Positions 13,661-38,382 of a DNA stretch of 64,000 bases are shown one piece after another. Position 1 is the stretch's first letter. The number at the start of each line of letters is the position of its first letter. The position numbers were made by a program, and so were the translations under genes. The stretch spans positions 1 to 64,000 of the forward strand of contig CALHHY010000115.1 in NCBI GenBank assembly GCA_938030665.1, read 5' to 3'. The notes beneath the pieces were generated by a model. That model made no database searches, was not told the DNA's origin, and saw only the letters and a list, made by a program, of their open reading frames with translations. The DNA is from an uncultured Litoreibacter sp. GTDB lineage: Bacteria > Pseudomonadota > Alphaproteobacteria > Rhodobacterales > Rhodobacteraceae.

Positions 13661-13661
13661 C

Positions 13662-18810: not shown

Positions 18811-21800
18811 TGCGGTCCCTCCAGTGAACATGACAGGGTATGCGCATCCATGGCAGCGCAACCGGCGTAATGGGCCAAGGCAATCCGTCCAGTAGCATGT
18901 CGAACGGTCCCGGCAGCACGTGCAGATGGGTGCCGGTATCGTCCGCCGTCAGACTGCCGGGACGCACCAAAAACGTTTCGCGCAGCCCGTCGGGCGACGT
19001 TTTCCCAAGTCTGCCCCATTGCGCCACGACTGCCGCAAGTAGCCCCTCAATCAGCGCTTCCGTTTCCTCATTCAGCGGCCGCTGCGTAAGTTCGGGCCGC
19101 CCCTCAAGCCCTAGCAGGACATAATGCAATGCATCCGGCCGGCCATGTGATCCGGTGAGACCCTGCAGCACGCTGAAAGCATAATCGCGGCGCGTCTCAA
19201 TGATCTGGCGGTCGGCGTCCAGAATCTCCAATCGCTCAAATAGGAGCCGAAGATGCGGATGGAGCAGCACGAGTCCTGCGTGGTCTGTGATCACATCCTG
19301 GGGCCCGGCGGATGAAGAAGGCGTTTTGCTATCCTCACGAGGCTCAACCGTCTGGTCACTTAGCGATGCCGGTGCGGTTGTCCCGATGTCGGTCAGAACC
19401 GCATCAACCGCAGCGGCAAGCTCATGTCGAAGCGCCGGCCGGGGACCGCCGACCTGATAGGATAGACGTGTCGAAAGGACGCGCGCCAAATCGATCCGCT
19501 CGCTAGTATCTGGCGCAAGCCTTTCAAGACTGGCCGCGACCGAGCCGGCGAGACTCTGTGGAAACGACAAACTCAGAATGCTGAACTCCAGCAGAAAAAA
19601 ATCCTTTGGGGTCGGTATGTTTGACTTTGGCAAAGGCGGCGTATGGGTGGAGTCGTCGCCGCCCAAATCGCCGTGCTTTGCATCAAAAACGTGCCGGTAG
19701 CGTTCTGGAAGCGCCTCCCAGAGCAGTTCGAAATGGCCCCTGTGGATGATAATGTTCGTAGAACCAATAGTGTCTAACAAGCTAGAAAGCACTTCCGCTT
19801 GAGCTTGCTGCACGCCGGACGATAACGGATTCTTCTGAAGTCTCTCCACCAAGAGCGTCAAAGCCTTGCGGTGCTTATTTCGCGAGGTCACCTGCGCCCG
19901 GGGGTTATCGACGTCCGTCGGAATTGTATTGTTCAGACTTACTACGGAGTTGCCGGAAATCGATGAACGATCTCTCCGTTCCCGCCCAGCTTGCGCCTCG
20001 GTCGGTTGGTCAGCTGCGTCCGCTGTTCTTGTGATCACATTCACAGCAACCCCTTGTAACAAGTCTTGCAAAAGAGCTGTTTTTGCGTCTTTGCCCCCCT
20101 GCTTATCGTCGACATTGTTGCGAACATATCGGCGCGCGTCTGGGTGAAGTTGTGCAAGCGCAACGGAGATTAATTGATCTTGCGTCGCGTCAGAAAGCGC
20201 CTGCAACAGCAGGCCCAGCTGCCCATGATACCGACCTGCAAATGCGCGAAGCTGGTGGAATGTTATTGCCGGATCATCCGTTAGGCATTCCCAGAAAGCC
20301 AGGTCACCCTTCTGGACCACATCCGGTGACTGAGATTGCTCGGACCGCCTGCGATTGTCGTTCGGCGTAGCTGAGGCCCGCTTAGACCGGGTTCTCTTTG
20401 ATTGATTTTTGAGGTTGCTACCTGCGGTCGACCTGCCATCCGACGGTCCTGAAAGATCAGAGAAATCGATGGGCCGTTCGTCAAGAAGTGTACGCATCAA
20501 GCGTCTGAGTTTCTCAGGTTGGTCTGCGTAACTTGCGACAAAAGAGGCAAGCGTTGCGCGGAAACGTTCGGCGCCATCCGGAGCCAGCCGGTCGCAAAGC
20601 GTCGCGATGTCTTCCGCGGCAGCAGTACAAATAAACGGCTCTAACCCAGCAGAATTTTCGTTCCACAATCTCCGCAAGGTTTCAGCAGAAGCGCTTACAA
20701 ACTGATCTCTGGTCAACGGTTGAACCGGGTCCAGATGATTGAAGAAGCCAGCAACCCCCACCTGAAGACGCATCACATCGTCCTTATGCTGGCCGACCAT
20801 GCCAATCATATGATGCGCCGCGTTCGGTAGAAAGATCGCAAGATAATCGGCCAGACGGCCAAATGGCGCCGTTTCCAGTACCCTCATCCGTTGCTTAGCG
20901 CTGAGCTTTGCGATGCGAGCAAACTCCTGATGCCAATCCGGCTCGTTGCCTCTAGGGCTATCGCGGCTATAACCAACGTTCGCTGACCCCAGTCTTCGCT
21001 CAATATCAGCCCGGTCCGGGCTTCGAATGGTTTTGAAATCACTCGATGCGCGCGAAGTTAAGTTTTCAAAATTGATGGCAGCCCCGTGGAGTAGTGCCCG
21101 CAATAGCAGTAACCGCTGATCGGTAGACTGAGGCTCCTCACCCAGAACCTGTTTAAGCTTCTGGCGCAATTCGGCGGCCCCTTGGGGGATCAGGTTGATC
21201 AGCAGTTTACGCTGTTCGTTGTCATCAAGTTCCTCGAAATGAGTCTCCAACTGGGTGGGATTGGCTCGCCAAAGCGCTCTTATTGCAGAATGACGATTTG
21301 ACTGATCGGCCGATTTCTTATCCCGCGGGAAAAGCTCTGCATTATAATCTGAACCAGCCAGAAGCGCGCGCAGGCTCGCATGCGACTTTCCGGGTTGATT
21401 GAAAACAGAGAGGATCGTCTGAACGTCGCGGTCCAGCTCAGAAGCGGGGCTTTGAGACGCCAGGAGCGCCCAAATACGATCCCGCCGCTGTTTGGGAATA
21501 TGCGCCTGAACGGCCTCGTTCAAAGCGACAGAGTTCGTCCGACTAAGCGCTCTTAGACCTGCATGCGATATACCTGTCCGACCGAAGACAGCAAGAAGCG
21601 TCTCGATGTCCTGATCCAATTCTGAGGATAGCATGGTTGACCGTACCGGAGCATCGGGCAACGTTTGCGACCCCTCATGGTCAGAGTCTTGTGCCAAGAA
21701 ATTGGTCAGAAGCGGCAGCACCACAGCCGCCGCAAGCAGCGCTGACTTCTGGTCGATCTCCAGATCGTTCGACACGCCCTCAAAGCTCGCCAGAAGCTCG

Positions 21801-22534
21801 GACACATGGTTCTGTACGTCCTCAAGCCAGAAACGATGCGCCTCCAGCTGTTGGACCATGAGCGCATCCCCGCCGCTGTCAGGTCCGTCTGCAAACGGTA
21901 AAGAGCGCTGGAGAATTGCGATGACACTCGAATGCGGCCCCGGTTCCTCTTGAACAAGATAACTCGGCGATGTGAGTTGGTCTTGCAGACGCGCGATGTC
22001 CGCAGCGGACCAGCTTTCATACATCCTCTGACGTCGTGTAGATGTAGAGAATAGGCTGGAATAGAGCCTTTCTTGGTGTTCAGGGTACTGTGCAATATGC
22101 GAAGCGATAATCTGTCGCGCCTTTGCGGCGGAGAGCCGCAAAAGATCGGCGGCCGTTGGCGGTGTGAACGGGTCTGACCCGCGTTCGGTGGGTGCCTCTA
22201 AATTGTCATCTCCCGGACCCTGACCCGGCCAGATCACATAAGGAGCCAGCGCGTTGCGCAGCTTCTGTGCGAAGACGTAGCGCAGCTCTGCCCAGTCCGG
22301 GGGATCGGACCAGTGCCCTAGGTCAATCTCCAATATCTCAACGTCGGCAAGTGCCTGGCGGAGAGGCCCAGCATCCAACACCTGCTCCAACACGGGCAGG
22401 ACCTCTGCTTTCAAGGCCACCGCAAGGCTATCCAGCGTGGCGAGCGAACTATTCAAAGCTTCGACATGCAAGTCCGTCTGCAGGATGCCGATGCGCGGAC
22501 GGACGCGTGCCTTTGAGGTCACCGGCGCGCTCAT
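18803..22534 (-). CDS. CIS tape measure protein (Afp14-like)
   Basis: 1243 aa; IGILQTDLHVEALNSS...LDLGHW-like N-terminus typical of CIS tape measure proteins; position between ATPase and baseplate genes. Confidence 0.8.
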   Translation of the reverse strand: MSAPVTSKARVRPRIGILQTDLHVEALNSSLATLDSLAVALKAEVLPVLEQVLDAGPLRQALADVEILEIDLGHWSDPPDWAELRYVFAQKLRNALAPYVIWPGQGPGDDNLEAPTERGSDPFTPPTAADLLRLSAAKARQIIASHIAQYPEHQERLYSSLFSTSTRRQRMYESWSAADIARLQDQLTSPSYLVQEEPGPHSSVIAILQRSLPFADGPDSGGDALMVQQLEAHRFWLEDVQNHVSELLASFEGVSNDLEIDQKSALLAAAVVLPLLTNFLAQDSDHEGSQTLPDAPVRSTMLSSELDQDIETLLAVFGRTGISHAGLRALSRTNSVALNEAVQAHIPKQRRDRIWALLASQSPASELDRDVQTILSVFNQPGKSHASLRALLAGSDYNAELFPRDKKSADQSNRHSAIRALWRANPTQLETHFEELDDNEQRKLLINLIPQGAAELRQKLKQVLGEEPQSTDQRLLLLRALLHGAAINFENLTSRASSDFKTIRSPDRADIERRLGSANVGYSRDSPRGNEPDWHQEFARIAKLSAKQRMRVLETAPFGRLADYLAIFLPNAAHHMIGMVGQHKDDVMRLQVGVAGFFNHLDPVQPLTRDQFVSASAETLRRLWNENSAGLEPFICTAAAEDIATLCDRLAPDGAERFRATLASFVASYADQPEKLRRLMRTLLDERPIDFSDLSGPSDGRSTAGSNLKNQSKRTRSKRASATPNDNRRRSEQSQSPDVVQKGDLAFWECLTDDPAITFHQLRAFAGRYHGQLGLLLQALSDATQDQLISVALAQLHPDARRYVRNNVDDKQGGKDAKTALLQDLLQGVAVNVITRTADAADQPTEAQAGRERRDRSSISGNSVVSLNNTIPTDVDNPRAQVTSRNKHRKALTLLVERLQKNPLSSGVQQAQAEVLSSLLDTIGSTNIIIHRGHFELLWEALPERYRHVFDAKHGDLGGDDSTHTPPLPKSNIPTPKDFFLLEFSILSLSFPQSLAGSVAASLERLAPDTSERIDLARVLSTRLSYQVGGPRPALRHELAAAVDAVLTDIGTTAPASLSDQTVEPREDSKTPSSSAGPQDVITDHAGLVLLHPHLRLLFERLEILDADRQIIETRRDYAFSVLQGLTGSHGRPDALHYVLLGLEGRPELTQRPLNEETEALIEGLLAAVVAQWGRLGKTSPDGLRETFLVRPGSLTADDTGTHLHVLPGPFDMLLDGLPWPITPVALPWMRIPCHVHWRDRND

Positions 22535-24666
22535 TGTGCCGGCTCCAGCGTTTGTAGAAACGCATGTAATTCGAGTTGACCGTCAGGCGTTGGCTTGATT
22601 TCACGCAACTCTTCAAACCGGGCCATGTGAGGGTGATCCAGCCAAAAGACGTCAATCTTCACATGCGCAGGAGCCAGCCGCTGAACCAGCTGCGCGACAT
22701 AACCGCGGTAGGCATCCAATCGGGTGCGAGCGGTCCAACTTGTGATCAACAATCTTGCGCAATTGGCACGATAAGGCGCGCGGCTTCCAGCGAAGCCAAC
22801 ATCCTCGATCAGGTAACAGCCTTCACTGCGTTCGTGGAGCGCCCGCCAGCTGGCGCGCAGCCGGTGCACTGTCTCAAGGCCATCCGTTTTGTCCAGACCA
22901 GCTGCGATCAGAATAGGCTCTAATCCATCGGAATAGTCAAATAATACCTGCCATCCTTTGTTGTCGTCTGGGGCCATAGTGAAGGCAAACGGATCAGCGG
23001 CTCGGGCGTATAGGGCCGGTGAAAGCACACCTTCTGACACCCAAGGGGACTGTTCACGCAAGATCGCGTCATCATAGGGGAGGGCCTGATCGTCCAGGGG
23101 CACCAACATGTCAAACGGGTTCAGATCGCGCCTGCGTTCGGGATTGGCCACGCGGGCTGGCTGCTGTGGCGCCTCCGCGGCAAGTTGAAAACCACAGGCG
23201 GTAAGGGGCGCGGCGGCATTGCCTGGTGTGATCGGCAAATCAGCGAGCAAGCCAAGATAGCCCAAAAACCCGCCGATCGTCCAGCCGCCGGGTCCCACGC
23301 CCTTCGCTGCGTTGATCTCGGTCAGGGCATGCAGGATGCGTTGCCGCCAGGCCAGCTCGAACGCGTGCCGCTCGCGGGCGCTGCGGTAATGATGCAGCCC
23401 CGTGTGCCGGGTAGCAGGCAGAGTTTCACCATGAAGCGCGATACGGTAGTCCAGCAGCGCGATGCGCTGACGGTAAAGCACAGGATCGTCCAAGGCCGGA
23501 TCGGTCCGCGCCGCGAATATGGCCGGAAGTTCCGCCAACGCTGTGCGGTGCAAATCCAAATGTGTCTCTAAACTGTTACGAAACGCGGCAAGTGGCACGT
23601 CTGAGCGGTCGTGCTGATACCCATGAGCCGGATACAGTCCGGGTAAAAGCGTATCCACATGCGCTGCTTCAAATGACCGATCTTGGCCGCCATAGCGCAC
23701 TTGCCAATCAGCTTGCGTGACATGGTGATGCGTGGTGCTGATCTGCTCCGCAGTGATACGCATCAGCTCTTCCCGGATGGTCGCCGCGGACAGGTCGACG
23801 TTCAGCCCATTCAGCGTGAAATCCAGACCGACCTGACCATCGGTAACCGGGCGGACCGTGGCGTAGAAATTCGGCACCCCGGTGCTGCGACGGTCCAGCG
23901 GGTCTAGCTCAAGCTCGGTGATGTTGCGGATACCGGGAATATCGCGCAGCGTTTTGAGATGCGCGTGCAGGTCGGGGGACCGCGTCCGCCGCGCCCCGCT
24001 GCGCCGCCAAAGGGCAATGGGATCGTCATACACATCGTCTCGCGTCGCCCCGATGACGGTCGTGCGCGTGTAAGGCAGCCCCCGAAGAATGACGGACACG
24101 GCGTGGTAAAGCTCTGCTGCGACCCGCTCCGGCAGGACGGTATCGCTGATCTCGACCTCGCCTTTCAGGATCACGCGCTGCTGTTTGGCAATGACGACAC
24201 GGCCCAACCCGGTGCAAAGCGGCCGAATGCGGGCAAACCCTTCGCGGACGATGGTTTCAAGCCGCTTCGCCCCGATTTGATCTTCGGCCGGAACCACCAC
24301 CGCGTCGTATAACCCCGGCTCCCGAGCAGGATCGACCCAGGCACGGGCAACCCCGGGAAGGTCGGATAGATACGCATTGAGGTCCTGCAAGGTCACGGGT
24401 GCGCTGCGCAGAACCTTTCGCGGGTTGTATTGAGGATGCTCAACGCCTGCTGCAAATGCCCCGTTCTGATCCGTCAGCAGGTCTCGCACCGGAAAATCAG
24501 CCTGATAGGCGGTCTGGCTTAGGGCGAAACACGTCTGCTCCAACAGGGTGACGCCGGGGTCGTGCAGGTTGTAGTCGGTCCATAACTCGCCCGAGGCATG
24601 TTGCGCGTGGTCTATCGCCTCCCGGCGCAGCTCGGCAAAGGTGATATGAGGCGGGTTATCCGTCAT
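22531..24666 (-). CDS. CIS baseplate protein (Afp12-like / baseplate J-type)
   Basis: LWTDYNLHDPGVTLLEQTCFALSQTAYQADFPVRDLLT, typical N-terminus of Afp12-class baseplate proteins. Confidence 0.8.
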   Translation of the reverse strand: MTDNPPHITFAELRREAIDHAQHASGELWTDYNLHDPGVTLLEQTCFALSQTAYQADFPVRDLLTDQNGAFAAGVEHPQYNPRKVLRSAPVTLQDLNAYLSDLPGVARAWVDPAREPGLYDAVVVPAEDQIGAKRLETIVREGFARIRPLCTGLGRVVIAKQQRVILKGEVEISDTVLPERVAAELYHAVSVILRGLPYTRTTVIGATRDDVYDDPIALWRRSGARRTRSPDLHAHLKTLRDIPGIRNITELELDPLDRRSTGVPNFYATVRPVTDGQVGLDFTLNGLNVDLSAATIREELMRITAEQISTTHHHVTQADWQVRYGGQDRSFEAAHVDTLLPGLYPAHGYQHDRSDVPLAAFRNSLETHLDLHRTALAELPAIFAARTDPALDDPVLYRQRIALLDYRIALHGETLPATRHTGLHHYRSARERHAFELAWRQRILHALTEINAAKGVGPGGWTIGGFLGYLGLLADLPITPGNAAAPLTACGFQLAAEAPQQPARVANPERRRDLNPFDMLVPLDDQALPYDDAILREQSPWVSEGVLSPALYARAADPFAFTMAPDDNKGWQVLFDYSDGLEPILIAAGLDKTDGLETVHRLRASWRALHERSEGCYLIEDVGFAGSRAPYRANCARLLITSWTARTRLDAYRGYVAQLVQRLAPAHVKIDVFWLDHPHMARFEELREIKPTPDGQLELHAFLQTLEPAQ

Positions 24667-25523
24667 AGCAGATCCGGATCACGTGGCGGCTGCCCCCGTG
24701 ACCCGCGCATCGTCTGATCAAACCAGAGCCGCGTAAGTCGGTACTGGATCGTGTGCTTGCCACCGAAATCGGCATTTGTGCAAATCTGCAACCGGAAGTG
24801 ATGCGGCGCGGGGTCCTTCACCCAACGCAACCGGATGCGATCCGCGTAGCTGCCATACATCGCGGTTTGCGTTCTGATCTGGCGGCGCCTGAATATCCAA
24901 TTCAACACCCGGTTACGCGGATGGTAGGCGTTCATCGCGATGGCATAGAGCATCGAGTAGCGCCCCTGCCCCTCCTGCCCGCCTGCGCCCGCGACCACCT
25001 CAAAGGCCTGACAGCCGGTCATCTCCTTCGTGATGTCCTGCCATTTGCCGTTGGCGTAGACCTCCTTGACCCCGGCGCTTTCAACCCCGATCCGGCCATG
25101 CATCCGGGCGACCCCGTTTACGTCAAGCGGCCAGGTCGGCTTGTGAAGCCCGATGCCCACCTGCCCGGCAGCGTCAATGCTAATACCGCGTTCAGGCACC
25201 GCATCATTGGCATCTGGCGGTTTGTTAGGGTCTAGTTTATGGGCATTCTTCCCTTTGTCAGGGCGGATATGTAACGCGCCGGGATTGGTATCACCATGCT
25301 CGATCACCCATGATGGGGACGGGGTGCCATAATCCTCATAAAGGCTCATCACCTTTAGCGATGACCCGACCGAGCTCAGCTTCAGCCCGTCAATATCGGT
25401 TTTGTCGAACCCGTCCTCGACCTGATTCACACTGCTGTCGATCAGGTCACGGTAATGGCTTGCGCTTGGCAGCGCGCCATCGCGAAAGAAGGATTTTAAC
25501 GTTGTGCGGTCCGTTTTGCTCAC
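24663..25523 (-). CDS. Tail-fibre-like CIS protein (Afp13 position)
   Basis: GISIDAAGQVGIGLHKPTWPLDVNGVARMHGRIG resembles tail-fibre motifs (GVGTxxPxxxLDVNG); lies among baseplate genes. Confidence 0.6.
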   Translation of the reverse strand: MSKTDRTTLKSFFRDGALPSASHYRDLIDSSVNQVEDGFDKTDIDGLKLSSVGSSLKVMSLYEDYGTPSPSWVIEHGDTNPGALHIRPDKGKNAHKLDPNKPPDANDAVPERGISIDAAGQVGIGLHKPTWPLDVNGVARMHGRIGVESAGVKEVYANGKWQDITKEMTGCQAFEVVAGAGGQEGQGRYSMLYAIAMNAYHPRNRVLNWIFRRRQIRTQTAMYGSYADRIRLRWVKDPAPHHFRLQICTNADFGGKHTIQYRLTRLWFDQTMRGSRGQPPRDPDLL

Positions 25524-25524
25524 G

Positions 25525-28500
25525 TCAGCTTCCTTCTCCTACGACCAGCATGTCACCAACGGTGAGGCGGCTGATACCTGTCGGGGCCGCGGGCTCTTGT
25601 TGCAGGTCAGTCTCAACCGTCAGCACATGGTCGCGAGTGGACAATGGCAACGCCCATGGACGGGTAGCACGCAGAACGGCGCCCGCCCCGCGCGCTGTGT
25701 CGGCAAGCCGGTACACCGCCGCATCATCGCCCGCCAGATGCAGCACCGAGAACTCGGACAGGGCGCGGACATATGGCTGGGCCAGGATATGCGCCTGTAA
25801 CGCCCGGATGTTGAGCGACCAGCCAAACCGTCCGAGCGTTTCATCTGCGGTCCAGACCGATAGATAGGCCGCCAGGTCCTTCTTCAGCTGTTGTGCCATG
25901 GCCCCGTTTTCGCGCTCTGGCTCAAAGTCCAGCTTGGCACGCACCTGCAACCGCTCAAAACTTGGGTTAACGACTTCGAGCTGCGCATTGTTAGAGCCTA
26001 TTTTTGTAACAAACGCTTTGATACGGGACAGCGTGGCGACGTCGAACAAACTTGGCTCAAAACTGCCATTTGTCCCATGTACCAAGGCCCGGCGCGCCAC
26101 GACAAGCGTCGCATATCCCGGCTGCGGCATCGGCGTTGTTCGCCGCGTATGGGGCAGGCAGTTGGCCATCCAGACCTCTGGGAAGGCTTCCAGCACCAGC
26201 CGCTCGATGTCCCACGGCGTGACGGCGCGACCCCGGTGTTTCAACCGCTCGCCAACTCGCGTGACAAAGGCCTGTTCTGTTTCCGGGGGGTGGATTGCGG
26301 CGGGGGTCACGATCTCCGAAATGCCTGCAATATCGGGGCGGGCCGGGTTGAAGGTCCAAACCCGGGACGCCGACGCGCCGGGGGCGAAATTGGTGTCGCG
26401 AGCGCTGGCCCAGACGCCATTCACCTTGACCCGTTCTAGCTGCGGGAAGTCGTCCAACCGCTGACCTTGGGCGATGGCCGCAATCCAGACCCCGCCGACG
26501 GGCATCTCGGGCGAGTGCCGGGCGGCATCCTCGGGCAGGTCAATGGAGACAAGCCCCGATCGCATCAGCCCCGCGGTCGTATCAGAAGAGATCGCGGTTC
26601 CCGGCAGACGCTGCCATCCAAGCGGTGACAGATAGTGCCAAGTCACCGGGTTAGATGCGGGCACAACGCGCAAATGCCCGCTTTGCGCCATCTCAAAACA
26701 CAAGACGGTTGGCCCTGTCACATGCGCGCCCGTAAGCTGGATAAACAACTGCCCGAAACCGAACCGTTCCGGGAACAGGCAAATGGGGCGCAGCATGCGT
26801 TGCGGGAAGACCTCGACCTGGCCAAAGGGGCCAACCTGCACGATGCTGTCGCCGGTGCGGGCCGAGTCCGGGGCTGCGACCTCGATCGTGTCAGTGGCCG
26901 TATATGAAAGACTAAACCGGCCTATCTTGGGCACAAAGGGCTTGGGCGGCAGCACCCTTTGCCGCAAAGGGTTCAAACGGGGGCGCATCGCGTCAACCAG
27001 GGCCAGCGGATAGCGATTTGCATGAAATCCACCAGCCGTGCCGCTGAGCCTCAAACGCACGATACCTGCGCGAATGGTCTGACGGGATGCAAACTCCTTT
27101 GCTTTCACCACCCCGTGCGCGGGCTGGGTATGCCCCGTTACCGCGCCGTGGTAGCGCCAGCCTGGCGTCACGACATCGGTGATCGGGTCGCTTTCAAGCA
27201 TCGCAGCCGGTCCGCCTTTCACGGCCTTCCAACCGTCGCCGCTTAGATAGTCGACACTCAGCTGCGGTTTGGGTGCCTCCACGCCGCGGCCATAACTTTC
27301 ATAATGCGTGGACAGCCCGCCGGGTTGATCCGGCAGATCCGTCCAGTCGAGTGATATGCCAACATGAGTGACCGATTTACGCGCCATCTCGGGCGCGCCG
27401 GCAACAAATGTTGCGCCGTCATCCGGTTGGATGCCGAAAGGCAGGAACGTCTGATCCGTGGCAACAAGTCCGTCATCCGAGAACGCGGCGAGGGTTTTCA
27501 GCCCGGCGACCTGCACGCTGATATCAATACTTTCAACCCGGTAGCGTTCGAAAAACGACACCGGGCAGACAACGGCGGACCCGGCCATGCGTAGCGACAG
27601 CTTGGGGGCGGCTCCCGGCGCAAGCCCCGCGATAGCGGGCATGCTGTCATCAAGGGCCATGCTGATGCACAGGCCCGCTGGCGCGCCTTGATCGCTGGGG
27701 GCGACGTGCAGAATGCCGGGCCGCACCATGCCCTGTGCGGTGCTGATCCGAATATCAAATGCGTCGCCCAAAAGCTTTTGGAAAACATCAACAGGTGCGT
27801 TGTCGATTGCGCCATCTGGCAAAGCGGAAAAGGCTCTAAATATGCCCGATTGTTGCACATTCATTGGTGACATGGCGCTATTTGGGTCACGGTTCTGGCC
27901 GGTCAGCTCCGTGCGACCTCTGGCAATCTGCGCAAATATATCGCGCCAATACCGACCCTTCGGGAAGTCAATGTTGTGGATGATGCACAAGCCGGCGATC
28001 CGCATCAACAACAGGCGCAAGGCTAGGATATTGGGCACCGGGTTGCGCGCCAGAACCTCGTAGATCAACCACAGGCTGGGCCGGACGTTTCGACGCCGGG
28101 CGGTGTCGCTGATCTTGAAGGCGAGAAGGTGGATGGCAGATTCAGGTGGGCCCGCACAGAAGGCCGCGATTAACGCCGGATCAGCGCGCAAAGCCAGGAC
28201 CAACTCCGGCTCAACCGTGCCGCGCTTGGGCCGCTCTTCCCCGTCGCGGTAGGGCGTGGATATGGCGGGCAAGTCCGTGGGAGGGCTGAGATTGATCTGA
28301 ACGGTGATCTTGCGCTGCCCCTCGGCCAGTTCAAGCGTGGTCGAGTAAATGTCCAACCCCATGTCGATCGCTGCTGGGGCCCCTGCGTTAAACATCTTCC
28401 CACTGCCCACATCGCCGCCCTGCGCATATGTCGCCGTGACGCCTGTGATCGCGTTGAATGCCGCGTTGAACGACACGTCAGGGTCGGTCTCATAGCTTAA

Positions 28501-29424
28501 CGTGGCAACGGCCGTCACTTTCGCCGGGTTCAGATGGACCCCCGCATCTGTCGCAAAGCTTTGCACGGTGTTGTCAGGCAGCCGCGCCTCTAATCTGCTA
28601 CCCGCAGGCAAAAAGCTGGGTTGGGGCCCGGCGGTCAAATCAAGCAGAACGGTTTCGGGCGTCGCAGGGCGGGGCTTCTGGCCAATAATGTCTTCGTAAA
28701 AGAACCGCGTGTGACGCGGCACAATCGCGTTGATCCGGTCCTCGATCCGGCCGGAAACCTTAATCTCGGCAAGCAAAAGGCCCAGAACAGGCTCTATTCT
28801 TTTCGATTTCAATCGCATCTCGAACGCGGCCCTTGCCTGCGGTTGCAAGGCGGCCACGGCGTTTCGTAACATGCGATGCGCGGTCTCCAGCGCGTGCTTC
28901 ATTGCGCGGGCCTCAGCGATGCCCCCGCGAGCAGACGCGAGCTGAGGGGCGAGACCGGCAGCCTCGATCCCCTTTAGCAGCGCCGTCGGCCTGTATTGTG
29001 CGAGCTCTGCCAGGACACGCTCCAAATCCGCCTCGACATTGAGCTGGTCCAGCTGATCGCGAAACGTATCAAGCGGCCCCGTGCGGATGCGGCCGACCCA
29101 GTGATGCAGCTTCTTGGCCAGGTCGGAGAGTAGCCGAACCGCTTTCAGCGGCTCATAATCAAGCGCATTCTCAAAAGAAAATGCAGCGTCGTCGGCCCGA
29201 AAGGTCAAGATTTCGGCAAATAGAAATGCGGGTTCCTGATGGAAAAGCCGCTGCCAAGGCCCCTTTTCCGGATGAAGCGCGCCCGCAGATAGCCGATTTC
29301 CCGCCGCACAGAACGCCTCCGCCAACCCGTCCATATGGATGCGAAACCTGCCCTCCCCTAATGCAGGAGGCAGGCGGTCGCTGGCGCGGGTGCCGGGTGT
29401 TACGTTGATGTCGGTCCAGTCCAA
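25525..29424 (-). CDS. CIS baseplate J-like protein (Afp11-like)
   Basis: 1299 aa; VLLDLTAGPQPSFLPAGSRLEA; RVGERLKHRGRAVTPWDIERLVLEAFPEVW. Confidence 0.85.
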   Translation of the reverse strand: MDWTDINVTPGTRASDRLPPALGEGRFRIHMDGLAEAFCAAGNRLSAGALHPEKGPWQRLFHQEPAFLFAEILTFRADDAAFSFENALDYEPLKAVRLLSDLAKKLHHWVGRIRTGPLDTFRDQLDQLNVEADLERVLAELAQYRPTALLKGIEAAGLAPQLASARGGIAEARAMKHALETAHRMLRNAVAALQPQARAAFEMRLKSKRIEPVLGLLLAEIKVSGRIEDRINAIVPRHTRFFYEDIIGQKPRPATPETVLLDLTAGPQPSFLPAGSRLEARLPDNTVQSFATDAGVHLNPAKVTAVATLSYETDPDVSFNAAFNAITGVTATYAQGGDVGSGKMFNAGAPAAIDMGLDIYSTTLELAEGQRKITVQINLSPPTDLPAISTPYRDGEERPKRGTVEPELVLALRADPALIAAFCAGPPESAIHLLAFKISDTARRRNVRPSLWLIYEVLARNPVPNILALRLLLMRIAGLCIIHNIDFPKGRYWRDIFAQIARGRTELTGQNRDPNSAMSPMNVQQSGIFRAFSALPDGAIDNAPVDVFQKLLGDAFDIRISTAQGMVRPGILHVAPSDQGAPAGLCISMALDDSMPAIAGLAPGAAPKLSLRMAGSAVVCPVSFFERYRVESIDISVQVAGLKTLAAFSDDGLVATDQTFLPFGIQPDDGATFVAGAPEMARKSVTHVGISLDWTDLPDQPGGLSTHYESYGRGVEAPKPQLSVDYLSGDGWKAVKGGPAAMLESDPITDVVTPGWRYHGAVTGHTQPAHGVVKAKEFASRQTIRAGIVRLRLSGTAGGFHANRYPLALVDAMRPRLNPLRQRVLPPKPFVPKIGRFSLSYTATDTIEVAAPDSARTGDSIVQVGPFGQVEVFPQRMLRPICLFPERFGFGQLFIQLTGAHVTGPTVLCFEMAQSGHLRVVPASNPVTWHYLSPLGWQRLPGTAISSDTTAGLMRSGLVSIDLPEDAARHSPEMPVGGVWIAAIAQGQRLDDFPQLERVKVNGVWASARDTNFAPGASASRVWTFNPARPDIAGISEIVTPAAIHPPETEQAFVTRVGERLKHRGRAVTPWDIERLVLEAFPEVWMANCLPHTRRTTPMPQPGYATLVVARRALVHGTNGSFEPSLFDVATLSRIKAFVTKIGSNNAQLEVVNPSFERLQVRAKLDFEPERENGAMAQQLKKDLAAYLSVWTADETLGRFGWSLNIRALQAHILAQPYVRALSEFSVLHLAGDDAAVYRLADTARGAGAVLRATRPWALPLSTRDHVLTVETDLQQEPAAPTGISRLTVGDMLVVGEGS

Positions 29425-30403: not shown

Positions 30404-30841
30404 CTAATAGGCCGGAACGGGCGTGTCGGAGACCAGAGTGCCCTCCCGCTGATAGAAGGGGAACACCATGTTGGCCCGGTCATTGGTCTGATTCACGGTG
30501 TATTCGAGCCGGATCGCCAGACCCCCCTCTAGCCAGTCCTCGGTCTTGACCTCGATATCCAGCAAGGTGATCCGAGGTTCAAAGTACAGCACGGCCTGAG
30601 TGATCGCGACCTCAATCGCCGCATCAAGGTCTTCCCCCATGGGATCAAAAACGAGGTCGAACAGGCGGCAGCCGTAATCGGGCTGCATGATCCGCTCCCC
30701 CGGCCGGGTGCCCATCAGGATGCGCAGGCTTTCCGCGATGTCTTCTTCTGCCGCCACCATGGCCGCGCGCCCAGTGGCCGGGTCAAGCCGCAGCGGGAAG
30801 GCCCATCCGCGCCCCAGAAATGCCGGTTCCACATCATTCAT
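30404..30841 (-). CDS. gp25-like baseplate wedge protein (Afp9-like)
   Basis: FLGRGWAFPLRLDPATG...ESLRILMGTRPGERIMQPDYGCRLFDLVFDP, gp25/IraD-like family. Confidence 0.92.
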   Translation of the reverse strand: MNDVEPAFLGRGWAFPLRLDPATGRAAMVAAEEDIAESLRILMGTRPGERIMQPDYGCRLFDLVFDPMGEDLDAAIEVAITQAVLYFEPRITLLDIEVKTEDWLEGGLAIRLEYTVNQTNDRANMVFPFYQREGTLVSDTPVPAY

Positions 30842-30844
30842 CAA

Positions 30845-31165
30845 TTATCCCCCAATCATCACAGTCGGCGCGCCGAGAATGATCGCACCGCCATGGGACG
30901 TCGTGTCGCCCATCCGCGCCGCCGGTTTACCGCCGATCATGACCGTGCCCGAGCCCTTGGCGATGGTCGCAGGCGGCCCGACGCAGGTGCAGTTGTCGCC
31001 CTGAACCGCTGCGGGCAGGCCCGCGATCAGCACCGTCGGCACCCCCGGTCCGATGATTGGCCCGCCCACATGCGGGACGATCCCGGTCACCATCGGGCAG
31101 CTGTGCATGTCGGTCAGTCTTGCGGCTGGTGGCATTGTCCCTCGCGCCCCTTTTCCATGTCTCAC
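30845..31165 (-). CDS. PAAR-domain spike tip protein (Afp10-like)
   Basis: MPPAARLTDMHSCPM...GLPAAVQGDNCTC...GKPAARMGDTTSHGG. Confidence 0.93.
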   Translation of the reverse strand: MRHGKGARGTMPPAARLTDMHSCPMVTGIVPHVGGPIIGPGVPTVLIAGLPAAVQGDNCTCVGPPATIAKGSGTVMIGGKPAARMGDTTSHGGAIILGAPTVMIGG

Positions 31166-31167
31166 CC

Positions 31168-32934
31168 TTAGTTGATCATCACGACGCCGCCGGTCACCTT
31201 CGCCTCGCCGCCGCCCTCAAGCGCCGCCGACGCACCGCCACTACCTTTGAACGAGGCGCTCGCGTCGCAGGTCACGTTCACCCCGGAAATGGTAGCATCA
31301 GAGCCTGCGCCGATATCGACCGTGCTAGCTGCCGTCACCTCGATGCTGCCGGCGCTGTCAATCTTGATGCCGCTGCTACCCATGGTGATCGTGTTGCCGT
31401 TGCTGTCAGAGATCTTCACCTCGGCCGCATCGTCATCCATCACCACGCTATGCCCGCCCGGGGTCGAAACGGTGATGATCTTCTTTTCCTCGTCAAAGAG
31501 GATTTTCATGTCCTCCCGCGTGACAATTGACTTGATGAAGTTGTCATCTGTCGGGGCATTGGGCTGGGCCGCCGTCGCGCTATGCAGCGAGCCGATGACC
31601 ACCGGGGCATGCGGATCAGCGTTCAGGAACGCCACCAGCACCTCGTCATCGATCTCAGGCATGAACTGGATCCCGGCGTTGTTGCTGGCATAAGGCTGGG
31701 CATAGCGGGCCCATACCGGCGCGCCCTCGGCCGTAATGAGCGGCAGCAACACCTTGATCCGCAACAGCCCATCGGGGTCTTCTGCCAGCTGCTGCACCTT
31801 GCCAATATGCAGCCCATGGATGGGCGAGGCGAGGCCTTGGGTGACACCCCCGCCGACGGACGGGCCATCCGCCACAAAAGTTTCCGGCAGGCCCAGAGTT
31901 GCTGTCGTCTCCCACTGGCCCTTTTCGGCCTTATGCGTCACGGCGGAGATATAGGCCTTCCCTTCGTACCGCTTACCAAGGTTCTTGAGCTCTAGAACAC
32001 TATTGGCTTGAGCCTTGTTAGAGCCTTGAAACCGGCAGCGCCCCTGAATGCCAGACAAGACGGACCGTGTCAGGCGGGCATCCGACATGGTCTTCAGCTC
32101 CGCCGCGGCCAGCTCCCGCGAGGTGGCGAACGCCAGTTCCCGTTCCACCACGGTCTTGGCCAAATTCGACGGCGTCACATTGCCCCATGTGCTGGAAGGA
32201 AGGGCGCCGCCGACCCCCTCGACAGTTTCTTGTGTTTTGGAATCCCAGGCCCGCCCCTTGGCAGTGCTCGCCAGAAACTGCGCGTCGATCCGCGCGTCGA
32301 ATTCCAGTATGTCGTCGCCCAGAGTGCAGGTCAGAACCGGATCGCCTGATGTGTCAGGGGTGCCGACATGTACCTTGCCTGCGGCAACATAGACAATTTG
32401 CCCATTGCGCTCGGCCACACTGCGCAGAAAATCCCAGTCGGTCATATCATGCTGGATCTGGTCTCGCGCGACGTCCTGCGTGGCGGTGACGTCAGTGGTC
32501 AAACCGTGGTCGGACAGGATCGCGTTGATAACATCACTGTCTTTTTGCTGCTGAAACAGGGTCGTTTTCTTGACGCGCATCATCGCCACCGCCTTGTCGC
32601 GGGCGATGACCTCCAGCACTGGGCCGCGGCTCATCGTGATCCGCATCCGTTTGCCGACAATAACCCCTTCAAAGAACGTCAGCGCGCCCCCGTCACCGTA
32701 GCTGCCCGCGATGGTGATTGCTTTGCCTTCTTCGAAAACGCTGCTGTCGGCTTCGGGAAACTCGCCCTCCGCCACGTCGCCTGCTGCAAGGCGCAGCACG
32801 GCCTCAGGCATCTGCCCCACCCCTTCCTCAGCATGGGCGGAGATGACCTGATAGAAATCCGGAATGGCCGCGCCATCTGTTTTGACCTGCAGACCGAAGA
32901 CACCTTCGGCACCTGTTCTGGGGCTATCGGCCAT
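31168..32934 (-). CDS. VgrG-like spike protein (Afp8-like, phage baseplate gpV type)
   Basis: GLHIGKVQQLAEDPDGLLRIKVLLP...VWARYAQPYASNNAGIQFMPEIDDEVLVAFLN OB-fold block and C-terminal beta-helix repeats. Confidence 0.93.
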   Translation of the reverse strand: MADSPRTGAEGVFGLQVKTDGAAIPDFYQVISAHAEEGVGQMPEAVLRLAAGDVAEGEFPEADSSVFEEGKAITIAGSYGDGGALTFFEGVIVGKRMRITMSRGPVLEVIARDKAVAMMRVKKTTLFQQQKDSDVINAILSDHGLTTDVTATQDVARDQIQHDMTDWDFLRSVAERNGQIVYVAAGKVHVGTPDTSGDPVLTCTLGDDILEFDARIDAQFLASTAKGRAWDSKTQETVEGVGGALPSSTWGNVTPSNLAKTVVERELAFATSRELAAAELKTMSDARLTRSVLSGIQGRCRFQGSNKAQANSVLELKNLGKRYEGKAYISAVTHKAEKGQWETTATLGLPETFVADGPSVGGGVTQGLASPIHGLHIGKVQQLAEDPDGLLRIKVLLPLITAEGAPVWARYAQPYASNNAGIQFMPEIDDEVLVAFLNADPHAPVVIGSLHSATAAQPNAPTDDNFIKSIVTREDMKILFDEEKKIITVSTPGGHSVVMDDDAAEVKISDSNGNTITMGSSGIKIDSAGSIEVTAASTVDIGAGSDATISGVNVTCDASASFKGSGGASAALEGGGEAKVTGGVVMIN

Positions 32935-32937: not shown

Positions 32938-33624
32938 TCACCTCATAGGCGGGAAGCGCAGCAGCGTTCCCGGCGTCAATGAGCGAAAATTGTCGAGGCC
33001 GTTCAAAGCCGCAATTTCAAGGTACTTGCCCGCGTCCTTGTAGATGCGGTGGCACAGCATCGGCAACGTGTCCCCGTCGACCACCTGAACGACATGGGTC
33101 AGATCAGGCGACTTGCGTTTGGCTTCCAGCGCTTCCTGCGCCTCGGTGCGGGCCTCGATGAAATCCATCTTGATCTTGGCGCGTAAAGCTTCGCCGTTGG
33201 GGTGGAATAGAGTATAATCCATGGACATGGAGGTAAGCCGCCCGAAGAAGGCTTTCAGCCCCTTCCCCCACATGATTTTGACGGCTGTTGGCTCATGCTC
33301 GTCGCCATCATAATCGTAGACGATCTTGCGCAACTGTTCGATCTGCTTCGCGACGGTCTGCTTCTTCTTGTCAGGCACCACCCCGGTGCCGTCGACAATG
33401 ATCGAGAAGCTCACTTTCTCCGGCTCGGCCATCGCATATTTCGGCACCGGGGCGGAGCTGCCAATCGGGTTCTCCCCCTGCCCCATCGTGCCGGTGTAGT
33501 TTAGCCCGAAATTATGCGAATAGCTTTCCGGGTTAATCACGGCCTCAAAGATGTTGGCCGGGCCTTTCTTGGGCTCTATCTTGCTTTTGCCCATCTTGCA
33601 GCGCTGAATGCGGAGCTTGGCCAT
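32938..33624 (-). CDS. LysM-type CIS baseplate/hub protein (Afp7-like)
   Basis: EPKKGPANIFEAVINPESYSHNF...; C-terminal LysM-like VVDGDTLPMLCHRIYKDAGKYLEIAALNGLDNFRSLTPGTLLRFP. Confidence 0.88.
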   Translation of the reverse strand: MAKLRIQRCKMGKSKIEPKKGPANIFEAVINPESYSHNFGLNYTGTMGQGENPIGSSAPVPKYAMAEPEKVSFSIIVDGTGVVPDKKKQTVAKQIEQLRKIVYDYDGDEHEPTAVKIMWGKGLKAFFGRLTSMSMDYTLFHPNGEALRAKIKMDFIEARTEAQEALEAKRKSPDLTHVVQVVDGDTLPMLCHRIYKDAGKYLEIAALNGLDNFRSLTPGTLLRFPPMR

Positions 33625-33627: not shown

Positions 33628-33801
33628 CTATCGCTCCCCCGCGCGTCGCTGCGCGTCCTCAAGCATATCGCGCATCTCGGAAAGCAGGTCGCGGCGCCAT
33701 AGCTCCAACTCTTGCCGTGTTACGGAAGGCGCCGCGTCTCGATCCGCAGGCGCGCTGCCGAACGTGCCTTTGACCACCAATGTCCCGATCTCTACCGCCA
33801 T
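33628..33801 (-). CDS. DUF5908-like small CIS protein (Afp6 position), absent from supplied ORF track
   Basis: Manual translation: MAVEIGTLVVKGTFGSAPADRDAAPSVTRQELELWRRDLLSEMRDMLEDAQRRAGER*; start overlaps upstream stop by 1 nt (TGATG), ends 4 nt before the LysM gene. Confidence 0.8.
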   Translation of the reverse strand: MAVEIGTLVVKGTFGSAPADRDAAPSVTRQELELWRRDLLSEMRDMLEDAQRRAGER

Positions 33802-34256
33802 CAGACTTTCCTTTTGATCGTGTTATACGCAAGCTCGATCGTCTCTACGGCCAGCTCGTTTTTCATCGCGTCAAAGCCGCCAACCTCCCAGCTAACCGGG
33901 TAGGCGTTGGTCACGGTCCAGCTGGCCAGGGGGTCCCCCTCCTCATCCAGAAGGGAAACCGTAAGGTCTTTCGGCTCGATCCGCTTGGCTAGGTCCCGTT
34001 CCAGCGTTGCCTGACACCACTTCACCAACTCGCTGTTCTTCTTGGTCAGACTGCGCTTCAGCTTCAGGTTCGGGTTCTTCGCCGGTTTGGGTAGCTGGTG
34101 GACGAAACGGTTTTCCCCGCCTTCGACCACCGCTTCGGTGTCAAACCCCGCCTTCAGCCCGGACACTTCTTGAAAAGCCGCGTCCGAGATGGACGGGCCG
34201 GCCCCGGAAAAAGCGACCGAGAAGTGAAACGCTACGGGAAAAACAGGGTCTGACAT
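33801..34256 (-). CDS. CIS tube protein (gp19-like, Afp5-like)
   Basis: MSDPVFPVAFHFSVAFSGAGPSISDAAFQEVSGLKAG...AYPVSWEVGGFDAMKNELAVETIELAY. Confidence 0.9.
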   Translation of the reverse strand: MSDPVFPVAFHFSVAFSGAGPSISDAAFQEVSGLKAGFDTEAVVEGGENRFVHQLPKPAKNPNLKLKRSLTKKNSELVKWCQATLERDLAKRIEPKDLTVSLLDEEGDPLASWTVTNAYPVSWEVGGFDAMKNELAVETIELAYNTIKRKV

Positions 34257-34265: not shown

Positions 34266-34724
34266 TCACGCGTTTTCGATCACGAAGCCCTCATGGGCGA
34301 TCTCGATGCTTTCGACCGCGACCTCATTGCCCTCGGCCTTCAGATCAGTGCCCTGCACCTTGACCGGGAAGGCGTTTTGGACCTTCCAGACCATGGTCGG
34401 CGCCTGCGCCTCGTCCAGCAGCGAGATCGTCAGCGCCTTACGCTTGATGGTGTTCATCTTCACCTCTTTGAACCAGTCAAACAGCGCGTTGTCCTGAATG
34501 AAGACGCCTTTCTTCATTGTGATGTTGGAGTATTTGATCATCCCCGGCATCTTGATCTTGGAGAAGACCGGGTTGTTGCCCGCGCGGTATTCCAGCGGTT
34601 CGTTTTCCATGTCGAGGCCGGAGACCTCCTGAAACGCCATTTCCGTGTCGTCCCACTTCACCTGGAAATGGAACTTTGGAAGCGGCCAGATTGCGTTTGT
34701 TTGGGCGGAGCCATCATCTGCCAT
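34266..34724 (-). CDS. CIS tube protein (gp19-like, Afp1-like)
   Basis: WPLPKFHFQVKWDDTEMAFQEVSGLDMENEPLEYRAGNNPVFSKIKMPGM. Confidence 0.93.
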   Translation of the reverse strand: MADDGSAQTNAIWPLPKFHFQVKWDDTEMAFQEVSGLDMENEPLEYRAGNNPVFSKIKMPGMIKYSNITMKKGVFIQDNALFDWFKEVKMNTIKRKALTISLLDEAQAPTMVWKVQNAFPVKVQGTDLKAEGNEVAVESIEIAHEGFVIENA

Positions 34725-34746: not shown

Positions 34747-37050
34747 TTATGATTTCTGCATTTGCTGCTGGAACGTGATCTCGATGAATTCTGCGGGCCG
34801 GGTCACGGCGACCAACACGGTAATCCGCAGGATCCCTTCAAGAATGTCCTCGGGGGTCATCGTCTCCCCCAGACCAACATGGACGGAGAAAGCGTCCGTC
34901 GGCACAGCCCCCGCAAGACCGCCCTGCTTCCAGATCCCGGTTAGGAAGTTCTCGATCATAGATCGCATCGTGACCCAGGTATTGGCCGTGTTAGGCTCGA
35001 AAACATAGGCTTTGGCGGCCAGTCGGATCGATTCCTCCAGCATGATCATGGTACGGCGCACGCTGATATAGCGCCAATCAAGGGAGTTGCCGTCCAACGT
35101 CCGCGCGCCCCAGACCAGCGTGCCCTCGCCCACAAATGGACGGATCGCATTGATCGACTTACCGGTGGTTGAGACGTTTAGGTTCTCTTGCTCGGCATGG
35201 TCGATATTGACCGTGGGCGACACGACAGAGTTGACCGACACATTGGCCGGCGCCTTCCAGACCCCGCGTGAATTGTCCACTGCTGTGTAGATCCCGGCCA
35301 TGGCCGCTGATGGGGACATATTGTTCATGTAGGCCGTGATCGTGTCCATGATGGTGACGTAAAGCGGGGCCACCGCGCGCATCGTTTTGTCGATGGTTTC
35401 CACCGTTGGGTCTTCAGGCGCATTGGGGTCTTCGACGCCGTCGAACAGCACTTTGACCTCCTGCGGATCGCCTACCACGTCGCCTTTGGCCAGCGCGTAG
35501 AAGACGGAGACAGCGTCGCCCTTGAAGTCATCTTCGGGGTCAAAGGTGATCGTGCTTTTGTCGTCCTGCACTGTCCAGACGCCTACTTTGGGCACGGTTA
35601 GGGTCTTTCCTTCGACGGCAGCGATGGCGTTCGCAGCCTCCTCGTCAGCCTTCTTTTTGTCGGCGGCCGTGGCGTCGTCCTTCTCGGCTGCTTCTTTAGC
35701 AGCCTTTGCCGTCGGGTTCTTTTCGATCACCTCATCTGCGTCGATCTCATCCGCGCCTTGCAGCACGATCAGCTCGTCCGTCTCCTTCGTCACATCAACA
35801 GCGGCCGTCCCGCCGCTGGCGGCAGTCCCTTTCGGCACGACTTTCTGGCCCGTCACCACCTTGATCTTGCGCGCGCCTGTTTCGATGTCGTCGCTATCGG
35901 TGACGATAACGCTGAACTCCCCATGGCCGTCGGTGCCGCCATCGGGGTCATGCACAAAGCTGATCGCCCCCGACTTCAGCTCCTCCTGAGTGAACTCCGT
36001 TATCGCCTCGTCAGGTTTGTCCGTCTTCACAACCATGCCGGCCATTTTATCGGCCTCCCCCTCAATGTGGAATTTCAGCTTGGCTGCAGAGGTGCTTTCG
36101 TCTTTGGCGGAGATATCCGTTTCGGTCACAACAACGGTTTCGCCGGGCACAACGGACAGGGTGAAATCGCCGGTGAGCACCGGGGTGCCAACACGCTCGA
36201 TCTCCGGCACGATGTTTTCGTCCTGCTCGACCGAGCGGCGCAGCAGGGAGATCAGCTTTTTGCGGCTGTCAAAGTCCACATTCAGAAAGTTGAAATCGCG
36301 GTTTGAATAGACCGACGTGTTCAGCCAAGGGTAATACGCCGCGCCGTAATCCAGGCTGCTGGTACCAAGCGCGTCACGGAACCGGGCCACCGGGCGACCG
36401 CGCGGGCCATCCTGTTCCAGATAGCCGCCGGGGATATCAAGGATCGCAAAGCGGCTTTTCATCTCCGCCCCACAATGTTTCAGCACCTGCTGCTGCACGC
36501 TGATAGCGTCCTGATGGGACAGGCGCGTGACATCGGGGGTGACGATCATCGTGGGCTCCGGCTCTTTCTTCAGCACGGTCAGCGCGTCGGTCATCGGCTT
36601 TGCGGTGATGTCATCCTCGAACGTGCCGACTGAGACGACGTAGCACGCCCCGCCGCCGTTCTGGAAAAACAGCCGCATCGCGCCGTAAAGCGCGTAGGCC
36701 GGGTTCTTTTGGACCAGCTCGAACTTCTCTTCGCCGCGCGGGCCTTTGGTGGAGAAAACCGCCTGCGGCAGTTCCGGCTTCATTGCTGCCCCCTCGACGC
36801 TCAACGGCGACGTCCCCTCCCGAGGGGTGAAGGGTTTCAACTCGAAGACCGGCTCCGGCCCGAAGCCGAAGAAGTTGTGGAATTCCGACATGGAGGTCAG
36901 CCGCTTCGGGACGCCCGCCAATGGCAAATTGCCGTTCATCGCCTTTTGCGTATAGCCGATGAAGGCGGGGACGGCGGTCGCCACCTGCACGACGGAATTG
37001 GGGAAGGCGTTCTTCTCGACGATATAGACGCCGGGGGTTTTCATGGCCAT
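34747..37050 (-). CDS. CIS contractile sheath protein with large internal insertion
   Basis: MAMKTPGVYIVEKNAFPNSVVQVATAVPAFIGYTQ N-terminus and SAAMAGIYTAVDNSRGVWKAPANV...FVGEGTLVWGARTLDGNSLDWRYISVRRTMIMLEESI C-terminus; ~260-aa insertion between. Confidence 0.95.
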   Translation of the reverse strand: MAMKTPGVYIVEKNAFPNSVVQVATAVPAFIGYTQKAMNGNLPLAGVPKRLTSMSEFHNFFGFGPEPVFELKPFTPREGTSPLSVEGAAMKPELPQAVFSTKGPRGEEKFELVQKNPAYALYGAMRLFFQNGGGACYVVSVGTFEDDITAKPMTDALTVLKKEPEPTMIVTPDVTRLSHQDAISVQQQVLKHCGAEMKSRFAILDIPGGYLEQDGPRGRPVARFRDALGTSSLDYGAAYYPWLNTSVYSNRDFNFLNVDFDSRKKLISLLRRSVEQDENIVPEIERVGTPVLTGDFTLSVVPGETVVVTETDISAKDESTSAAKLKFHIEGEADKMAGMVVKTDKPDEAITEFTQEELKSGAISFVHDPDGGTDGHGEFSVIVTDSDDIETGARKIKVVTGQKVVPKGTAASGGTAAVDVTKETDELIVLQGADEIDADEVIEKNPTAKAAKEAAEKDDATAADKKKADEEAANAIAAVEGKTLTVPKVGVWTVQDDKSTITFDPEDDFKGDAVSVFYALAKGDVVGDPQEVKVLFDGVEDPNAPEDPTVETIDKTMRAVAPLYVTIMDTITAYMNNMSPSAAMAGIYTAVDNSRGVWKAPANVSVNSVVSPTVNIDHAEQENLNVSTTGKSINAIRPFVGEGTLVWGARTLDGNSLDWRYISVRRTMIMLEESIRLAAKAYVFEPNTANTWVTMRSMIENFLTGIWKQGGLAGAVPTDAFSVHVGLGETMTPEDILEGILRITVLVAVTRPAEFIEITFQQQMQKS

Positions 37051-37066: not shown

Positions 37067-37810
37067 TTATGCTATAGATACGAAGATATCTGCTTGAAAT
37101 TGCACCGGTTCTCCGGCGGACTGGCTTGAATTGATTGAGTGAGGATGCGGGGCCGGAAGCACGCGGATCAGGGTTTGCGGCCCAAAGGGGCCGGGCTGGC
37201 GCAAGGTGAAGCGCTGCATCGGACGGGCCCGCATCGGGATCGGGTCCTTGCTGCGGATGATACGCACCGGCTGCCCCGTTGGCAGCGTGTCCGCTAGCGG
37301 CTTTTCAAAGGGCGCGGCCCCATCCGCGGTTACCACCTCCAGTTCTTTTTGGGTGTCGCCGCCCGTCACCTGATATGCCCAGTGCACATCGATACTTTCA
37401 AAGCGAACTGTAAGATGGCGAGCGGCCCTGTCGCCGTCGTCAAACGTGATTTCCAATAGCCCGAGCGTTGCCTGGTCCCCGATGTTGCGGGGGCGCTTGG
37501 CGGGGTACCCCTCCCCGAAGGTCCAGCTGTCCTGACCGGGTTTCAAACGCTGCACCTGTAGCCCGTCCAACCCAACCCCTTTGGTCAGCCAAGGCACCTG
37601 CGCGTCGGGGCCTGAAACAACGACGGTCACCTTGCCAAGACCCGCATCGGCAGGGGCCAGTATCACGACCGCGTCCCCGTCGCGGCGCAACAGCAAGTCC
37701 TGCGCGGCGAAGGCACGTGGGTCCACGGGCGCCACCTCCAGCGGAGGGGAGGCATCGCCCCAATAGTCATGGCGCAAGGTCAGACGCAGGCGTTCGACGT
37801 AATCGGTCAT
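37067..37810 (-). CDS. Conserved-position CIS operon protein of unknown function
   Basis: 247 aa between DUF4255 and sheath; 4-nt overlap with the DUF4255 gene; no recognised domain by eye. Confidence 0.6.
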   Translation of the reverse strand: MTDYVERLRLTLRHDYWGDASPPLEVAPVDPRAFAAQDLLLRRDGDAVVILAPADAGLGKVTVVVSGPDAQVPWLTKGVGLDGLQVQRLKPGQDSWTFGEGYPAKRPRNIGDQATLGLLEITFDDGDRAARHLTVRFESIDVHWAYQVTGGDTQKELEVVTADGAAPFEKPLADTLPTGQPVRIIRSKDPIPMRARPMQRFTLRQPGPFGPQTLIRVLPAPHPHSINSSQSAGEPVQFQADIFVSIA

Positions 37811-38382
37811 GACACGGCCTCCGGCTTGACGATCTGGCCGGGCCGGCGAATAAGCGGCTCCACCCGTTGCACCATCTGCCCGTCAATCATGACAGAGCGC
37901 ATTTTGTACATAACCGACGGCACGTACCGGCCGCCCAGATTCCCCCAAAGCTGGCCAAGCTCTTCTGAGCGGAGGTTCGATATCTCCAGCGCCAGCTGGC
38001 TCAGCCCATCGGCCATGTCCGGGGTGTTTTGCGGGGTAAAGACCGGGTTGCTTTGGAAAAACATCATCGCGGCGGAGACCAGCTTGAGCCCTTCGGAGTA
38101 GATGTCGGCATCATGGCCGGACGCAAGCATGAGGTAGATATCAAGATGCACCGGCTCCGCCTGAACAACCTGGCGGGAGGTGCCGGATGTCCGGCCCCGC
38201 GGCACAGCGTCCTCCGCAATATTGACCAGAAACAGCACCAGCCTGTTGCGGGCCTCAGCCGCGGGCTTGCCTTCCTCATCCAGCAGCGGCGACAAGGCGA
38301 CAAGGCTGTCGCCCGTGCCGAACTTGGCTTTCAAATGGTCATCAAGCCGGCGCCGGACCAATTCAAGCGCCACATCAATCAC
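37807..38382 (-). CDS. DUF4255 / Pvc16 N-terminal-like protein (sheath/tube terminator, Afp16-like)
   Basis: MIDVALELVRRRLDDHL...LVLFLVNIAEDAVPRG...PVHLDIYLMLASGHDADIYSEGLKLVSAAMMFFQSNPVF. Confidence 0.9.
   Translation of the reverse strand: MIDVALELVRRRLDDHLKAKFGTGDSLVALSPLLDEEGKPAAEARNRLVLFLVNIAEDAVPRGRTSGTSRQVVQAEPVHLDIYLMLASGHDADIYSEGLKLVSAAMMFFQSNPVFTPQNTPDMADGLSQLALEISNLRSEELGQLWGNLGGRYVPSVMYKMRSVMIDGQMVQRVEPLIRRPGQIVKPEAVS

Follow-up and report, generated by a model that had tools for sequence, protein, structure and literature searches.

Two predicted beta-sandwich modules at a permissive and likely outward-facing site of the CIS sheath protein in Rhodobacterales

Sheath proteins with additional outward Ig-like domains have already been published for phage tails and for related contractile injection systems (CIS). 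In type 2 and type 3 phage tail sheath proteins, the conserved core is extended by Ig-like beta-sandwich domains that lie away from the tube, and a survey of these proteins proposes both adhesion and stabilisation as hypotheses for their role (PMC9230969). AlgoCIS of Algoriphagus machipongonensis is a single-sheath CIS, and domains III and IV of its sheath protein Alg2 extend outwards in the cryo-EM structure (PMC8894135; PDB 7adz). The sheath protein Cis2 of the Anabaena tCIS has a reported 'extra peripheral domain' relative to the PVC and Afp sheaths (PMC8894136; 7b5h). The SalCIS sheath (PDB 9r9h, 9r9i, 9r9n, 9rce), on which no paper was found in the literature searched, is 519 aa long and has no insertion; 9r9h shares a deposition group with 9rce, whose chain B bears the name SalCis12.

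The window, which denotes the whole stretch of 64,000 nucleotides of DNA analysed here, contains a CIS gene cluster in which one sheath gene was seen. The genes assigned to the cluster are the following:

37807..38382 (-), Pvc16_N cap protein (Pfam Pvc16_N, E 5e-33)
37067..37810 (-), probable cap adaptor, Cis16B-like, 247 aa, between the sheath and Pvc16_N genes (weak phmmer match to the SalCis16b cap, E 0.004)
34747..37050 (-), CIS sheath protein, 767 aa (Pfam Phage_sheath_1C, E 1e-10; phmmer 9r9h, E 1e-175, and AlgoCIS 7adz, E 2e-101)
34266..34724 (-), probable inner tube protein, adjoining the sheath gene (by-eye likeness to the neighbouring gp19-like ORF)
33801..34256 (-), inner tube protein, gp19-like (Pfam Phage_T4_gp19, E 3e-43)
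32938..33624 (-), CIS_tube protein (Pfam CIS_tube, E 1e-44)
31168..32934 (-), spike protein, VgrG-like (Pfam Phage_base_V, E 2e-21, and Phage_GPD, E 4e-6)
30845..31165 (-), PAAR spike tip (Pfam PAAR_motif, E 9e-26)
30404..30844 (-), gp25 baseplate wedge (Pfam GPW_gp25, E 2e-25)
25525..29424 (-), baseplate J-like protein of the Alg11/Cis11 type, 1299 aa (phmmer 9rce_A, E 3e-90, and 7aeb_G, E 4e-53)
22531..24666 (-), baseplate protein of the Alg12/Cis12 type (phmmer All3315, E 8e-23, and SalCis12, E 1e-21)
18803..22534 (-), tape measure protein (Pfam CIS_TMP, E 2e-44)
17476..18861 (-), AAA ATPase of the cluster (Pfam AAA, E 2e-27)

The 767-aa protein has a conserved N- and C-terminal sheath core, and its neighbours encode tube, spike, baseplate, tape measure, cap and AAA ATPase. 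Pfam places Phage_sheath_1C at residues 658-762, above the cut-off, and scores Phage_sheath_1 marginally under it, while phmmer finds 15 distinct sequences of CIS sheaths with E-values of about 1e-33 or lower. The PDB matches to both flanks of the insertion are CIS sheaths: the nearest solved core is 9r9h, which covers residues 2-269 and 548-767 of the query, followed by Alg2 and Cis2. Residues 285-545 correspond exactly to positions 36198-35416 of the window and lie in a single uninterrupted frame; the native sheath sequence runs to about residue 285 and restarts at about 546-550. The parts of the insertion are as follows:

35416..36192 (-), insertion in a peripheral loop of the sheath, residues 287-545; missing in homologues of 500-530 aa
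35851..36192 (-), module A, residues ~287-400, Cadherin_3 / CSPG-like beta-sandwich (Pfam Cadherin_3 at 290-388, E 2.4e-13; 21 of 23 aligned inserts)
35416..35850 (-), module B, residues ~401-545, CshA-repeat-like beta-sandwich with strands flanking a helical insert (Pfam CshA_repeat at 478-518, E 2.1e-6; 20 of 23 aligned inserts, counted at E 0.01)
35611..35745 (-), A/K/D/E-rich helical insertion within module B, residues ~436-480 (modelled helices 438-444, 446-456 and 462-479, pLDDT about 90)

An earlier note on this DNA had proposed an insertion in a CIS sheath protein, composed of a CSPG/cadherin-like and a CshA-like segment with an A/K/D/E-rich linker between them. The insertion itself is borne out by the alignment of 9r9h on both of its sides and by its absence from most homologues. 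The CSPG/cadherin-like segment is upheld by the Cadherin_3 match (50.4 bits against a cut-off of 25.5), by the predicted fold and by a search of the PDB with a profile of the inserts, in which the best sequence matches are CshA of Streptococcus gordonii (6szc, E 2e-4) and CSPG4 (7ml7, E 0.005). The former of these, together with the structure prediction and a marginal CshA_repeat score of 28.8 bits against the curated cut-off of 27, likewise agrees with the CshA-like segment; the cut-off of the NCBIfam repeat TIGR04225 is missed (28.4 bits against 60), and 'CshA-repeat-like' is therefore the safer name for module B. Modelled alone with AlphaFold2, the insert forms two beta-sandwiches of the anticipated Ig/cadherin-like fold (mean pLDDT 93.5, pTM 0.82), with three helices between the strands of module B. 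Foldseek relates the two-module model to cadherin tandems, other two-domain beta-sandwich proteins and CSPG4 (7n8x_B, 118 columns, TM 0.52 by target length); module B is predicted as a beta-sandwich, and a CshA repeat is absent among the 50 listed matches of the two-module model.

The A/K/D/E-rich stretch proved to be something other than a linker. Among the aligned inserts it occurs only in the window and in L028, L040, L041, L051 and L059; these six sheaths form one supported group (SH-aLRT 96), and the stretch splits module B at a point upstream of the GVGTW motif. Since module B is in one piece in the members without the stretch, and its strands lie on both sides of the helices in the model, the reading as a linker between two domains is rejected in favour of a helical insertion inside module B that is confined to one subclade. 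An assembly or chimera artefact is ruled out as the source of the whole insert, because many independent genomes share it and its GC content equals that of the core (0.597 versus 0.596). The proteins from which the modules are familiar, CshA and CSPG4, are cell-surface proteins, whereas the window modules lie inside a sheath subunit whose N-terminus is sheath core, without a signal peptide. The make-up of a fibrillar adhesin, in which stalk repeats are accompanied by a signal peptide, a surface anchor and an adhesive domain, was not found: the open reading frame begins with the sheath core (MAMKTPGVYIVEK), and a Pfam scan of the 767-aa sheath at E up to 10 revealed no adhesive-tip or anchor family.

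The placement of the insert relative to the particle can be read from AlgoCIS. Alg2 aligns to the window sheath through its residue 242 and again from residue 488, which leaves an insertion of ~245 residues (7adz 243-487) at the equivalent point of the chain; the assignment of Alg2 residues 288-320 and 430-446 to the outer domain (PMC8894135) agrees with this gap. Because the outward domains III and IV of AlgoCIS occupy this same site, the window modules should face outside as well. The Anabaena Cis2 differs in having just ~55 residues (7b5h 239-293) at the equivalent point. The search of the PDB with the insert alignment did not recover Alg2, and sequence therefore gives no recognisable homology between the inserted domains. 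In the full-length model of the window sheath, confidence drops in the C-terminal core, where pLDDT is mostly 41-77 beyond about residue 590, and the superposition of this model on AlgoCIS, the best fold match, has an rmsd above 20 A; the orientation is accordingly taken from the homology of the site, by which the insert is likely exposed on the outer face of the sheath. The exposure on the outer surface suggested by the earlier note is likely right, with good support from the shared site.

To survey related sheaths, we scanned 85,488 species, each represented by a single genome, which yielded at least 78 sheath loci, the best matches being kept, and examined 77 sheaths drawn from these loci and further relatives. 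The stretch from the YPW to the PSAAMAG motif is 87-118 aa long in most of the surveyed sheaths, which are proteins of 500-530 aa, and 340 aa long in the window. Both modules are present in 22 of the 77 among the matches listed, where this stretch measures 291-356 aa; as the sheaths were chosen by similarity to the window sheath, such counts are not population frequencies. The carriers comprise the window, Roseobacter, Yoonia, Rhodovulum, Cereibacter, Roseovarius, Loktanella, Octadecabacter, Paracoccus marinaquae and uncultured relatives, and the named ones among the matches listed all belong to Rhodobacterales. The notion of an insert unique to this genome is ruled out by these further carriers of the same two modules, and on the sequences compared the two-module sheath insert is a lineage-wide arrangement in Rhodobacterales. 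The earlier note had reckoned with an insertion that might be both common and already described: it is common within one lineage, and no published description of an insertion of this type was found in the literature searched, which covered few subscription papers and no preprints. Outward extra domains as such being published, it is the two-module Rhodobacterales version that is new.

Relatives in which the sheath and cluster genes are retained differ in what the site contains. Roseovarius lutimaris (L058) has module A alone, an alphaproteobacterial MAG (L056) has module B alone, and two sheaths (L061, and L030 from genome G007 of the window's own genus) have no module and carry short acidic or Pro-rich linkers instead. 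On a tree built from the core only, the insert states are strongly clustered, requiring 5 changes against a mean of 22.4 after shuffling. Other sheaths fill the same site with K/E/A-rich stretches (Flavobacterium, L055; Undibacterium, L072 and L077), and such different material, including AlgoCIS domains III and IV, marks the loop as a permissive site. Of 397 genomes drawn evenly from the window's family, 11 had a close sheath, with open frames of 489 to 790 aa. One genome of the family contains two sheath genes close together, with open frames of 719 and 489 aa (G438:C9:494846-497582). About 100-140 extra residues also occur in the N-terminal half of the sheath in Rubrivivax and the betaproteobacterial UKL13-2 (L083:4007-6037 and L108:4001-5821), at a second permissive site distinct from that of the window's insertion.

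The modules could not be traced to phages. Translated searches (tblastn) with the insert found zero matches in 50,697 phage records, so that a phage origin, although tried, is not supported, and the type 2 and type 3 phage sheaths with their Ig-like domains are set apart as phage proteins; a scan of viral contigs with the whole sheath as query gave 13 relatives, mostly 24-28% identical. No donor of the modules was found within the same genome, which is only 82% complete. Distant relatives of module B occur in large repeat proteins from other genera of the window's family; one repeat protein of the family (L117) combines five CshA stretches with an OmpA domain.

The inserts are uniformly acidic, with a pI of 4.05-4.8 in 23 of 23 members, and cysteine is absent in 22 of the 23, including both modules of the window. 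The net charge is -29 in the window insert and -7 in the remainder of the protein; the acidity may merely reflect the habitat of the bacteria. In eight close pairs, which are partly non-independent and reach insert synonymous distances of up to about 1.1, dN/dS is 0.02-0.12 in the insert and 0.02-0.10 in the core, which indicates constraint, with no sign of overall diversifying selection. The higher ratios of 0.4-0.6 in distant pairs coincide with high divergence and weak alignment of the insert and are uninterpretable. Non-synonymous change in the insert is 1.4 to 6 times that of the core in most pairs, which would be compatible as well with a weakly constrained insert or with one adapting slowly to a ligand. 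The identity between the window and L028 is 36% in the insert and 81% in the core. No broken frames were seen in the insert-bearing sheaths, and the order of the two modules is maintained in the 22 sheaths among the matches listed.

We give a probability of roughly one half to the reading that the insert would serve as a passive acidic outer coat, spacer or stabiliser, built of stalk-like modules on an outward-facing loop of the CIS sheath. Two tandem acidic modules, predicted as beta-sandwiches, occupy the variable loop between the halves of the conserved core; with the loop on the outer face, six copies of the insert would be shown per sheath ring. The modules would act as passive stalk or spacer folds and would not bind a target, and the highly acidic coat might keep the particles soluble and apart, stiffen the sheath, or both. 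In CshA, NR1/NR2 bind the ligand and the stalk is made up of the repeats (PMC10952558); the resemblance of module B to these repeats points to a spacer fold, away from a binding site. The same stalk assignment bears on the adhesive role that the earlier note had suggested, in which the outward modules would bind glycans or proteins of target cells or matrix along the sheath and help the particle to land. Both modules come from families present in surface proteins, module B resembles the CshA repeats of the OmpA-domain protein and other giant proteins of the same family, adhesion has been proposed for Ig-like phage sheath domains (PMC9230969), and the cluster shows just one tail fibre candidate, a small protein of 286 aa. 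An adhesive coat nevertheless appears unlikely, and adhesion finds no support in the present results, given a stalk family with no known binding tip (PMC10952558), no known ligand-binding adhesin domain by Pfam, overall purifying selection in close pairs, and a strong negative charge that disfavours non-specific attachment to negatively charged cell surfaces. A long shot is the related view of the Rhodobacterales sheath as a multivalent recognition array, whose many stalk-derived module pairs would recognise one specific partner, be it a target cell, the matrix or other particles, and partly replace tail fibres in first contact.

The insert might instead act as cement, its modules reaching neighbouring sheath subunits and stabilising the extended or contracted sheath in the manner of the extra domain of phage 812, for which stabilisation has been proposed (as cited in PMC9230969). 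In the distal layer of AlgoCIS, the tip of Alg2 domain IV comes near domain II of an adjacent subunit (PMC8894135), and the fold of the insert is predicted with high confidence; we consider cementing improbable all the same, as relatives with one module or none keep their sheath and cluster genes and modules of like charge would repel one another. That an outer loop tolerant of any folded insert merely retains near-neutral remnants of domain shuffling, free of selected function, would accord with the strong divergence of the modules (window and L028 again) and with the linkers (L030, L061), K/E/A-rich stretches (L055, L072, L077) or AlgoCIS domains that fill the same site, but the low dN/dS of the close pairs, the intact frames and the maintained module order make it very unlikely. 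The finding leaves the general picture of how CIS work unchanged. It does present a natural series at one permissive CIS sheath site, with both modules, A only, B only or none, and a comparison of these natural variants makes the role of extra sheath domains directly testable; the insertion point tolerates about 200-260 folded residues.

The gene content of the cluster fits a CIS in general, whether released as a free particle or membrane-anchored. Between the two large baseplate genes, a 286-aa protein (24663-25523, -) is short-tail-fibre-like by eye (PLDVNGVARMHG motif); Pfam and PDB searches with it gave no Pfam match and no convincing PDB match. A protein of 1105 aa (14162-17479, -) has a signal-peptide-like N-terminus, C-terminal hydrophobic segments around residues 1046-1097 and no family match, and a stretch of it (YYGLEFDFVDPDA...) resembles GH18-type enzymes, by eye alone. 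Many of the same genomes encode a homologue of it close to the CIS sheath, for instance about 18 kb away in G343, and this recurrence, together with its segments, makes it look like a conserved envelope-located partner of this type of CIS; membrane anchoring of the particle may be possible given these segments. Further along, the long reading frames at 11655-12776 (-) and 12773-13681 (-) lie wholly or largely opposite a conserved-looking plus-strand gene (11907-12959, P-loop ATPase-like by eye) and its neighbours and are probably no real genes, and the CIS cluster seems to end at 14162.
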